From an uncultured Monoglobus sp. (GTDB lineage: Bacteria > Bacillota > Clostridia > Monoglobales > Monoglobaceae): a stretch of 64,000 nucleotides of DNA. The notes below the pieces were generated by a model, which saw only the letters and a program-made list of their open reading frames with translations, had not been told where the DNA came from and did not search any database. The stretch spans positions 62,001 to 126,000 of the forward strand of contig CANRBF010000006.1 of assembly GCA_947628795.1 (NCBI GenBank). The letters run 5' to 3'. Numbering within the stretch: the stretch's first letter is position 1; each line of letters opens with the position of its first letter. Both the position numbers and the translations under genes were made by a program. Shown here piece by piece: positions 22,596-56,157 of the stretch.

Positions 22596-22775
22596 ATGAC
22601 CAAACGTGAACTTGAGCGTATTTTAAAAAAGGCGGGTTGGCAAATTATCAGCGGCGCTAACCACGACATGGCGGTAAAACACGGAACAAGCACAAAAATT
22701 CCGATTCCGAGACATAAAGGTGATATTCCTGTCGGAACGGCTAATAATATTTTAAAAGACGCAGGTTTAAAATAA
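22596..22775 (+). CDS. hicA: HicA-family toxin
   Basis: 59 residues. The protein begins MTKRELERILKKAGW, contains the catalytic-His context GANHDMAVKH and the positively charged IPIPRHKGDIPVGTANNILK, matching the double-stranded-RNA-binding-like HicA mRNA interferases. It starts 18 bases after the -10 box with a GGCGGGAAT ribosome site. HicB follows after 15 bases. Confidence 0.92.
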   Translation: MTKRELERILKKAGWQIISGANHDMAVKHGTSTKIPIPRHKGDIPVGTANNILKDAGLK

Positions 22776-22790
22776 TTTTGAGGTGATTTT

Positions 22791-23177
22791 ATGAAATACG
22801 TATATCCTGTTATATTCACTCAAGAGGACAACAAATATTTGGTTTCGGTGCCAGACCTGTCGGGCTGCCATACATTCGGCGATGATTTGTCGGATGCGAT
22901 CGAAATGGCGCGTGACGCAATGGCAATGTGGCTTTGCATAGCCGAGAACAATAAAGAAGAGATCCCGACGCCCTCGATCAATTTGAAGTCGGACAGCGGA
23001 ATAGTCAGCCTTATAGACATCGACACGGAAGCCTACAGAAAAAAGACAGACAGCCGCGCCGTGAAAAAGACGCTGTCTCTGCCAAGCTGGCTTAACACAA
23101 GGGCGGAACTTGAAGGCATCAACTTCTCCGCGGTTTTGCAGGAAGCACTAAAAGAGAGGCTCTCGCACCACGCTTGA
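22791..23177 (+). CDS. hicB: HicB-family antitoxin
   Basis: 128 residues: N-terminal HicB-type partial RNase H fold (YPVIFTQEDNKYLVSVPDLSG, then FGDDLSDAIEMARDAM) and a C-terminal ribbon-helix-helix domain (VKKTLSLPSWLNTRAELEG). It neutralises HicA and probably represses the operon at the palindrome in 22557-22570. Confidence 0.92.
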   Translation: MKYVYPVIFTQEDNKYLVSVPDLSGCHTFGDDLSDAIEMARDAMAMWLCIAENNKEEIPTPSINLKSDSGIVSLIDIDTEAYRKKTDSRAVKKTLSLPSWLNTRAELEGINFSAVLQEALKERLSHHA

Positions 23178-23200
23178 AAAACAACAAAATTTGATTTAAA

Positions 23201-23229
23201 CAGAGGTACGGCCGTGCCTCTGTTTTTTT
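23201..23229 (+). terminator. hicAB terminator
   Basis: CAGAGGTACG (23201-23210) pairs with CGTGCCTCTG (23213-23222) with one G-T pair, followed by TTTTTTTA. Confidence 0.85.
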
Positions 23230-23247
23230 ATATTTTTCAATTCCGCA

Positions 23248-23276
23248 TTGACCTTTTTGGAATATTATGATATACT
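23248..23276 (+). promoter_or_regulatory. Promoter of the structured RNA (copy A)
   Basis: TTGACC (23248-23253), 17-bp spacer, TATACT (23271-23276). The seventh base after the -10 box is G23283, the first base of the closing helix. Confidence 0.85.
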
Positions 23277-23282
23277 GATTAT

Positions 23283-23482
23283 GCCACATATCTGAATATA
23301 TAGCAATGAAAGCTGTTTTTTTCATACACAGTTTTATTTGTGCAATAATAAGCTAAAAATGTTGGCTTTGACGTGCACAAATAAAACAGTATGTCTTGTT
23401 GTATTTGTTTTCGGATGTGTGGCAGCATTGAAGTCTTAGCCGCGTTTTTATGTGCAGCTCAGACTCGGGCTGCACATTTTTT
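23283..23482 (+). ncRNA. Structured small RNA, copy A (6S-like shape, family unassigned)
   Basis: The 5' end GCCACATATCTGAA (23283-23296) pairs with TTCGGATGTGTGGC (23410-23423), 14 pairs including two G-U. An AU-rich internal bubble follows, then a long distal stem: CATAC plus GTTTTATTTGTGCA (23323-23344) with their complements (23373-23393). After the closing helix comes GCAGCATTGAAG and a terminator (TGTGCAGC 23451-23458 with GCTGCACA 23469-23476, then T-run). Closing helix, bubble and long stem recall 6S RNA, but the 141-nt core is short for 6S. Copies B and C share the architecture and the GCAGCA-TTG-AG motif. No reading frame fits. Confidence 0.75.
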
Positions 23483-23574
23483 ATTTGAAATTTTTGTCGG
23501 AAAGGCGGGAAGAGAACATGACGCTCGGATAAAAGTGTCAGCTATAATAATATAAAATATCGGAGGGTTATAAA

Positions 23575-24261
23575 ATGAAACCAATAATAAAAGAAAGATT
23601 AAAAGGCATGGTCTCCGGCCTCATTATCGGAGCCCTGGTCGTAAGCGGCGGAGTTTTCGCGAAGCAGAAATTTGAAACGATCGAAGTGGAGTACAACAAT
23701 ATCAAAGTTTACAAGGACAATGTTTTATGTGAATTAAAGGACGCGAACGGCAGCACCATTGAGCCGTTTATCTACAACGGAACGACCTATATGCCCGTAA
23801 GAGGCACGGCAAATCTTGCCGATATGCAGGTAACATGGGACGGAGCGACCCAGAGCGTGTATTTGTGGGACGAAATGGTCCCGAGCGGAACACCGTTTTT
23901 GGAAGCCTGCCCGCCGTATGATGGTTATTGTGACATATATTTGGCAACCGAAGGCCAAAGTTTTTCCATGGCAGGAGAAAAATACAGTAACGGAATAACT
24001 TCTCGTTATAATTCCAGTTATGAGCTTTTTAACTTAAACGGAAAGTATTCGGCCATCGAGTGCACGATCGGACATATCTATAACGAACAATATGAAGGAA
24101 AATCCGTTTCGTTTATCGTTGACGGAAGAGTGGTAAAGGAAATAGAGCTTGAGCCTGAGTGTCTCCCCAAAAAGGTTTCGATCCCAATCTCCTACGGACT
24201 CCAGCTGAAAATCCAGTTTAGTGGTTCTGCCATAGGCATCGGCAACATGATGGTGCAATAA
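23575..24261 (+). CDS. Stalk-domain protein with NPCBM-like C-terminal domain
   Basis: 228 residues. An N-terminal hydrophobic segment (MVSGLIIGALVVSGGVFA, residues 10-27) acts as signal or anchor. A stalk domain follows (about 32-102; YNGTTYMPVRG, VTWDGATQSVYL), then an NPCBM-like jelly-roll (about 108-228; NLNGKYSAIECTIG, VSFIVDGR). Probably a surface protein that holds glycans or wall material; no enzyme active site is seen. GGAGGG lies upstream of the ATG. The structured RNA gene ends 92 bases before it. Confidence 0.75.
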   Translation: MKPIIKERLKGMVSGLIIGALVVSGGVFAKQKFETIEVEYNNIKVYKDNVLCELKDANGSTIEPFIYNGTTYMPVRGTANLADMQVTWDGATQSVYLWDEMVPSGTPFLEACPPYDGYCDIYLATEGQSFSMAGEKYSNGITSRYNSSYELFNLNGKYSAIECTIGHIYNEQYEGKSVSFIVDGRVVKEIELEPECLPKKVSIPISYGLQLKIQFSGSAIGIGNMMVQ

Positions 24262-54709: not shown

Positions 54710-54916
54710 TTAAACCTCCATTTTTCGCGGACAATTATATGTCATACACGTTTTACAATACTTCTTATAATCCTCGGAAATGCAGCATAAATAATAATCA
54801 CACTCGTTACAACATGCGTAAGGATGCGTTATCTCATTATAATTGTTATCATTGCCGGGACAATCTTTTCCAAAATTACCCGGGATCAATTCAACGCCTG
54901 TTACATCAAATATCAT
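54710..54916 (-). CDS. Small Cys-rich protein downstream of structured RNA copy B
   Basis: 68 residues with ten Cys, several in pairs (KDCPGN, ACCNECDYYLCC, YCKTCMTYNC), suggesting a metal-bound mini-fold. It begins MIFDVTGVELIPGN; I recall similar short proteins from gut Firmicutes but no function. GAGGTTGAT is well placed before the ATG at 54916. The terminator of the structured RNA ends 20 bases upstream, so readthrough of that RNA would transcribe it. The HicB-type remnant follows directly. Confidence 0.62.
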   Translation of the reverse strand: MIFDVTGVELIPGNFGKDCPGNDNNYNEITHPYACCNECDYYLCCISEDYKKYCKTCMTYNCPRKMEV

Positions 54917-54933
54917 TTTATCAACCTCATAAT

Positions 54934-55101
54934 GAAAAATGCGCAGCCGGAGCCGCGCAAAAAAATGCACAAACTCCAATTGCTGCAACACAATTTCACA
55001 ACAATGTCAAGAACAGACAACGCGTAAACAGAGCGTGCATTTTTATCAATGATAAAAATGGCACACGTTATCTGTTCTGTTAAACTGTGAAATTATGTTG
55101 C
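54934..55101 (-). ncRNA. Structured small RNA, copy B
   Basis: On the minus strand the RNA begins GCAACATAATTTCACA (55101-55086), which pairs with TGTGAAATTGTGTTGC (55000-54985), 16 pairs with one G-U. After a 7/9-base bubble comes a 13-pair helix (AGAACAGATAACG with CGTTGTCTGTTCT) and an apical hairpin (CATTTTTATC, ATT, GATAAAAATG). The closing helix is followed by AGCAATTGGAG and a terminator (GCGCGGC, TCCG, GCTGCGC, ATTTTTC). Promoter spacing, start base, closing helix and the GCAGCA-TTG-AG motif match copy A at 23283 though the middles differ. Confidence 0.75.
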
Positions 55102-55107
55102 AAGATT

Positions 55108-55136
55108 ATTTTAGCATAACACTGTTAAAAATGCAA
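55108..55136 (-). promoter_or_regulatory. Promoter of structured RNA copy B
   Basis: On the minus strand TTGCAT (55131-55136), 17-bp spacer, TAAAAT (55108-55113). The seventh base after it is the G that opens the closing helix. Confidence 0.78.
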
Positions 55137-55164
55137 TATTTATATTTTATAAACCGAAAAAGAG

Positions 55165-55193
55165 TTGTAAATTTGAATATATTGTGATATAAT
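55165..55193 (+). promoter_or_regulatory. Promoter of the first RelE-type pair
   Basis: TTGTAA (55165-55170), 17-bp spacer, TATAAT (55188-55193), divergent from the structured RNA promoter. Confidence 0.75.
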
Positions 55194-55226
55194 TAAAGCA
55201 GTTAAATTTATAGATTGGGTATTGTT

Positions 55227-55863: not shown

Positions 55864-56031
55864 GAAAAATGCGTAGCCGGAGCCGCGCAAAAAAATGCAC
55901 AAACTCCAATTGCTGCAACACAATTTCACAACAATGTCAAGAACAGACAACGCGTAAACAGAGCGTGCATTTTTATCAATGATAAAAATGGCACACGTTA
56001 TCTGTTCTGTTAAACTGTGAAATTATGTTGC
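55864..56031 (-). ncRNA. Structured small RNA, copy C
   Basis: Nearly identical to copy B: start G56031, closing helix 56016-56031 with 55915-55930, terminator 55871-55888. One change in the terminator stem (GCGCAGC to GCGTAGC on the plus strand) turns a pair into a different one and keeps the hairpin largely intact. Confidence 0.75.
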
Positions 56032-56037
56032 AAGATT

Positions 56038-56066
56038 ATTTTAGCATAACACCGACAAAAATTCAA
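56038..56066 (-). promoter_or_regulatory. Promoter of structured RNA copy C
   Basis: On the minus strand TTGAAT (56061-56066), 17-bp spacer, TAAAAT (56038-56043). The spacer differs from copy B at several bases while both boxes are kept. Confidence 0.75.
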
Positions 56067-56094
56067 TATTTATATTTTATAAACCGAAAAAGAG

Positions 56095-56123
56095 TTGTAA
56101 ATTTGAATACATTGTGATATAAT
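56095..56123 (+). promoter_or_regulatory. Promoter of the second RelE-type pair
   Basis: TTGTAA (56095-56100), 17-bp spacer, TATAAT (56118-56123), the second copy of the plus-strand promoter. Confidence 0.75.
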
Positions 56124-56157
56124 TAAATTAACATCGGATTATTGAAAGGGTGATAGT

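Follow-up and report, generated by a model that had tools for sequence, protein, structure and literature searches.

What kind of RNA is encoded at positions 23248-23482 of the window, that is, of the whole 64,000-nucleotide stretch of DNA from an uncultured Monoglobus species that was analysed here? The original prediction had read this locus as an RNA gene with its own promoter and terminator. Both of these parts are in place, while it is probably no stand-alone gene: the spacing to ribosome binding sites (RBSs) points to a regulated 5′ leader. Judged by comparison between genomes, the locus very likely belongs to an undescribed, multi-copy family of promoter-linked 5′ leader RNAs that act in cis as transcription attenuators. 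Comparative support for this reading covers the promoter, the helices P1, P2 and P3, the coevolution of two alternative pairings (B:X and X:T5), the terminator and the gene-proximal position.

The putative leader in the window and its two relatives

The element under study, referred to as W1, is on the plus strand. Its sigma-A-type promoter (23248..23276) has a -35 box TTGACC at 23248-23253 and a -10 box TATACT at 23271-23276, with a 17-nt spacer between them, and the predicted +1 is G23283, seven bases beyond the -10. From there to the end of the terminator T-run, the leader RNA would span 23283..23482, as read from its fold and from its matches to two covariance models, R1 and R2. The first bases (23283-23296) pair with 23410-23423 to give the closing helix P1, whose 14 pairs include two of the G-U type. 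Within 23323-23391 lies the distal stem, with 5 + 14 = 19 pairs; P2 is formed by a 5′ strand at 23328..23344 and a 3′ strand at 23374..23390, and is capped by the apical hairpin P3 (23350..23368). Strand B, AAAAATGTTGGCTTTGA (23355..23371), consists of the 3′ arm of P3 and the neighbouring internal loop, and is complementary to the switching strand X, AGCATTGAAGTCTTAGCCGCGTTTTT (23424..23449), for which B and T5 are alternative partners; with its own X, the B of W1 gives -12.5 kcal/mol. The intrinsic terminator (23450..23482) comprises a hairpin at 23450-23477, with arms T5 (23450-23460) and T3 (23467-23477), and a T-run to 23482. The predicted fold of W1 reaches -73.7 kcal/mol, as against -45.9 +/- 3.9 kcal/mol in shuffled sequences (z -7.2), and none of 200 shuffles was as stable.

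The features originally described for this locus are thus present as stated: the 17-bp-spaced promoter, the G start that opens a 14-pair closing helix with two G-U pairs, the AU-rich bubble, the 19-pair distal stem and the strong terminator. The GCAGCATTGAAG segment 3′ of the closing helix is also there, and forms part of X.

The putative regulated gene (23575..24261, plus strand) begins 92 nt after the W1 terminator and encodes a secreted or membrane-anchored protein with a Cu_amine_oxidN1 (stalk) domain. The same gene is found 3′ of the element in three other genomes. Directly 5′ of the W1 promoter, at 22600-23177, are an ORF that reads as HicA-like and a HicB-type antitoxin gene (PF15919); this pair has its own terminator before the promoter and is probably unrelated to the leader.

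Two further copies that had been named together with W1 are confirmed, both of them on the minus strand. In the first of them, W2 (54934..55104), P1 is formed by 55086-55103 and 54985-55000, B is at 55028-55044, X at 54959-54981 and the terminator at 54941-54958, and the promoter has its -10 within 55100-55113 and its -35 within 55122-55136. The start codon of a small Cys-rich protein of 68 aa (54713..54916, minus strand), which has no Pfam match, is 17 nt past this terminator. At L146, which belongs to another family of the class Clostridia, the element likewise precedes the gene of a similar protein. The second copy, W3 (55864..56034), is a recent duplicate of W2 and leads into a short, apparently truncated HicB-like ORF. 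W2 and W3 are nearly identical to each other and only distant kin of W1. Their near-identical leader and promoter regions (54934-55200 and 55864-56130) flank a ParE-like toxin gene and a small ORF. A leader followed by a small Cys-rich protein of 68-83 aa, beginning MI-D-TG--L-PGN, is seen at L010, L146 and L158, which belong to different genera.

Size, distribution and novelty of the family

Diverged copies elsewhere in the genome were revealed at first by DNA similarity. Two covariance models were built, R1 from seven copies and R2 from 81 copies taken solely from other genomes. With E-values that are rough by design, R1 detects 15 copies in the genome of W1 itself (E < 1e-5), while R2 finds 21 there and 38 in one relative (E <= 0.001). 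W1, which is among the sequences of R1, scores 146 bits with that model; with R2, which holds no sequence from its own genome, it still scores 95.9 bits (E 2e-15). The proposal that W1 founded a small family is accordingly wrong: the family is large and class-wide, as the 21 matches to R2 in a single genome illustrate, and W1 shows no sign of being a founder, given that a model made without its genome recovers it.

Of 60 relatives, 40 have a match to R1, and a single genome holds as many as 34. In samples of the class Clostridia, matches occur in 88 of 391 genomes for R1 and in 53 of 196 for R2 (22-27%). In a phylum-wide sample of 398 genomes, with six candidates scored per genome, the own genome alone was matched, so false positives appear to be rare. 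Tandem pairs are common, with their members about 50 nt apart and a separate promoter for each. Nearly all named records that contain the exact core pattern derive from uncultured Clostridia of the guts of ruminants and birds. Exact-pattern scans of viral contigs yielded no match, which, as the patterns are strict, is weak evidence against phage carriage. At 1503-1535 of L003 and 1517-1543 of L007, promoter-like stretches match those of the leaders almost exactly and are followed by unrelated sequence; they may be decayed copies or shared promoter elements, and were excluded from the copy counts.

No family in Rfam 15 attains its gathering score at any position of the window, or across the elements scanned elsewhere, and permissive scans of W1 and eight other loci gave scattered low chance scores only, with no consistent family. 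Thus, the suggestion that the locus represents an undescribed RNA family was borne out. The Rfam matches found elsewhere in the scanned loci (tRNA, c-di-GMP-I, skipping-rope and cobalamin) do not overlap an element. Three c-di-GMP-I riboswitches lie in a row at 170-633 of L024 (minus strand), close to one of the leader copies, and a skipping-rope RNA match of 46.5 bits lies at 2245-2344 of L025, in the same genome. In the article texts searched in the open literature, no description of the leader family was found. A survey of structured RNAs in human microbiomes by Fremin and Bhatt (2021) reports 3161 unnamed candidates (PMC8040213); nothing found in its main text describes the leader family, which may be an unnamed entry in its catalogue.

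Shared architecture and competing pairings of strand X

A common architecture was read from 187 parsed copies, in which promoter, P1, an A/U-rich joint (AAUAUU), P2, P3, the 3′ strand of P1, X and terminator follow one another. Where the full upstream flank is available, the promoter consensus is TTGACA-17-TATAAT, with TGTG before the -10. The RNA starts at P1, whose consensus is GCnACAUAA... / ...UUGUGUnGC. P2 is a long helix of variable sequence that spans 13-81 nt, and P3 has the form UUUUUACC-loop-GGUAAAAA, with an unpaired GCUCU or GCUUU on its 3′ side. The tail X is exemplified by CAAUCGGAGCUAUGCAUUUUU or AAAUCAAGGCUGCGUUUUU. Conserved loop bases are AATA after P1 and GCTCT/TTTT near P3. 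No conserved ligand-binding core was established in these copies, and their targets form no consistent metabolic regulon.

Selection on RNA structure, which had been proposed from the G-U pairs of W1, is seen in abundant compensatory changes. In P1, both sides have changed in 12 of 14 pairs. Across P1 and the terminator, 96.5% of the cells of an alignment fitted to the tested structure are paired, and in this same structure-fitted alignment double-change cells number 310, whereas shuffles give 73 and slid controls no more than 36. In a permutation test limited to a single element per genome (57 genomes), z was -21 for P1, -29 for P2 and -8.3 for P3.

Two strands are complementary to X: B, which combines the 3′ arm of P3 with GCUCU, and the 5′ terminator arm T5. 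For both pairings, the energies of own partners were compared with those of partners swapped between copies, with unaligned strands and 500 permutations. This test replaced column-pair counts for B:X on alignment A2, in which two sequence types of X are misaligned. In 57 dereplicated elements, B:X gave -15.3 kcal/mol with own partners and -11.7 kcal/mol with swapped ones (z -10, 0/500), and X:T5 gave -15.7 and -11.5 kcal/mol, respectively (z -11.3, 0/500), while control strands gave z values of -0.4 and 0.4. Such an energy-based test may keep some phylogenetic signal, which is lessened by negative controls and by the use of one element per genome; in the set of 57 elements drawn from as many genomes, z was -7.4 for B:X and -9.6 for X:T5, and three controls ranged from -0.6 to 1.2. 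Own partners are also favoured in both pairings within each of the two sequence types, and at the same positions C-G, U-A and U-G pairs alternate. Coevolution between alternative pairings with a strand in common is the hallmark of attenuators, and the X:T5 antiterminator, which excludes the terminator, covaries in both sets (z -11.3 and -9.6).

In transcripts truncated ahead of T3, the predicted minimum free energy structure contains the antiterminator for all 57 elements. For full transcripts, the terminator is present in 29 of 57. The mean stability is -16.6 kcal/mol for the terminator and -14.1 kcal/mol for the antiterminator, which places the terminator 2.5 kcal/mol ahead. According to these predictions, the switch is energetically balanced, or poised, and such a balance is silent on which state is the default.

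Downstream genes, proposed mechanism and rival explanations

An RBS-preceded ORF begins within 250 nt of the terminator in 144 of the 187 copies, as compared with 27 in an antisense control. The spacing has a sharp peak: in 79 of the 187 copies the intrinsic terminator lies directly 5′ of the RBS, 15-29 nt before an RBS and start codon, an arrangement that occurs 0 times in the antisense control. The remaining 43 copies lack a convincing ORF of this kind over that distance, and some of these are upstream members of tandem pairs; these copies, like the 92 nt between W1 and its gene, count against the leader reading. By a crude rule, about 51 of 96 clusters of downstream proteins have a signal-like N-terminus. 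Target domains include BspA-type LRR, the Cu_amine_oxidN1 stalk, CHAP, SLH, peptidase M23, GDSL lipase, dockerin and RCC1 repeats; the targets also comprise AbrB/MazE-like proteins of 80 aa and numerous uncharacterised proteins of 40-110 aa. At W1, L135, L150 and L178, which represent several families of the class, the element precedes a gene for a stalk-domain protein. Most downstream genes encode either surface or secreted proteins or small ones that are AbrB-like or uncharacterised. The AbrB/MazE-like target of about 80 aa recurs at L019, L023, L024, L096, L093 and L015, with a Cys-rich, zinc-ribbon-like C-terminal part. These proteins are possibly their own regulators.

How could such a leader work? 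RNA polymerase would begin at the first base of P1, and the long P1-P2-P3 hairpin would fold before X emerges. In the ON state, X would pair with T5 to form the antiterminator, and the downstream gene would be transcribed. In the OFF state, B would capture X, so that B:X acts as an anti-antiterminator and leaves T5 free for T3; the resulting terminator would end transcription just before the RBS. A signal on the hairpin, be it a ligand, a protein or an RNA, would pick between the two. In this scheme we infer the formation of the pairings during transcription, the default state and the choice by a signal. Since X is tethered at the base of P1 and B sits atop P2, B:X would be sterically hard to form with P1 and P2 stacked, and with P2 spans of 13-81 nt a B:X pseudoknot with intact P1 and P2 is sterically doubtful in long members. 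On geometric grounds, P1 is therefore probably a gate that holds X away from B: a stable P1 would favour ON, or read-through, whereas one that forms late or is opened would tip the switch towards OFF. Tentatively, the family may constitute a P1-gated class of signal-sensing RNA switches, ligand-binding or RNA-sensing, that controls much of the surface and secreted proteome of many uncultured gut Clostridia, a serious possibility rather than the expected outcome.

Other explanations account for parts of these data. A closing helix, an AU-rich bubble and a long stem give the element the outline of a 6S RNA, and a short divergent 6S had been suggested for this locus. 6S RNAs are encoded by one or two dedicated genes per genome and are not leaders, whereas the element has 15-21 copies in its own genome and up to 38 in a relative, upstream of genes and with switching strands. 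Moreover, RF00013 has no match in the window at its gathering score (46.4 bits), and is absent at 23200-23520 even among matches at permissive E-values, while the canonical 6S of this genome lies elsewhere on the same contig (C6:17798-17991) and scores 80.1 bits; the element is not a 6S RNA. Attenuation by ribosome stalling at a leader peptide is highly improbable as well, in spite of SD-like GGAG/AAGG motifs in X and terminators that often begin with RUG. Rather than a conserved upstream ORF with regulatory codons, the ORFs at RUG range from 4 to 111 codons with no common composition or stop position, and in only 4 of 57 leaders does an SD-preceded ORF of at least 8 codons lie before X. The many copies per genome, the tandem copies and the recent duplication that produced W2 and W3 would also fit a selfish, MITE-like mobile repeat with P1 as its terminal inverted repeats. 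Near-identical copies unrelated to gene starts would then be expected; instead, the copies have diverged widely, show compensatory changes in all three of P1, P2 and P3, lie at a sharply defined distance from the RBS and carry promoter and terminator family-wide. No association with transposases was seen, bar one nearby IS200-type ORF at L084, and this origin is very unlikely.

Two explanations retain the RNA and change its mode of action. The element could be a stand-alone small RNA gene, whose terminated product of about 150-200 nt acts in trans or on RNA polymerase and whose downstream genes are coincidental. Its own promoter and strong terminator, a predicted start exactly at P1 and the copies without an obvious downstream gene are all compatible with this, and in Listeria the terminated leader Rli51 also acts in trans (PMC11394854). 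Nevertheless, such a gene is quite unlikely in view of the 15-29 nt spacing to RBS-preceded genes (79 vs 0 in the control) and of coevolved antiterminator and anti-antiterminator pairings that a plain small RNA would not need. Alternatively, B:X could form in trans, with the B strands of released, terminated leaders capturing X in nascent ones, which would create a feedback network of mutual and self repression. The apex position of B, with its single-stranded toehold, the tethering of X at the opposite end, the variable length of P2, the up to 38 copies per genome with tandem pairs and the stability of swapped pairs (-11.7 kcal/mol) all speak for it. However, own partners are significantly better than swapped ones, which fits pairing in cis or strict self-targeting, and X can reach B in cis before P1 closes. 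This arrangement is therefore unlikely, and attenuation in cis by a 5′ leader is the preferred reading.

As an attenuator, the family can be compared with known systems. T-box leaders and SAM-I are examples of terminator-type riboswitches and leader attenuators, and the family shares with these a position in the 5′ leader just before the RBS, a choice between terminator and antiterminator and many copies per genome. It differs in having no Rfam riboswitch or leader match, no known aptamer core or specifier, and in that the alternative partner of X is a strand of an apical hairpin far from the tail. The c-di-GMP-I riboswitch (RF01051), which is present in the own genome, is likewise multi-copy and tandem in Clostridia, but has another structure, and the element itself has no match to RF01051. 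Rli51 is the 5′ UTR attenuator of mpl in Listeria, a single locus of 121 nt; it, too, has terminator and antiterminator folds and releases a short RNA before the gene of an exported protein (PMC11394854). The element, by contrast, forms a class-wide family with a coevolved anti-antiterminator, and no sequence similarity to Rli51 is claimed.

The pairing strands are sufficiently well delimited for compensatory mutation to test the mechanism. If the attenuator reading is true, about a quarter of the sampled genomes of the class share an RNA regulon that has gone unrecognised and can count up to dozens of members in a cell. This regulon would control BspA-type surface proteins, stalk-domain and S-layer proteins, small AbrB-like proteins and cell-wall hydrolases, and would suggest a common signal in gut and rumen Clostridia.
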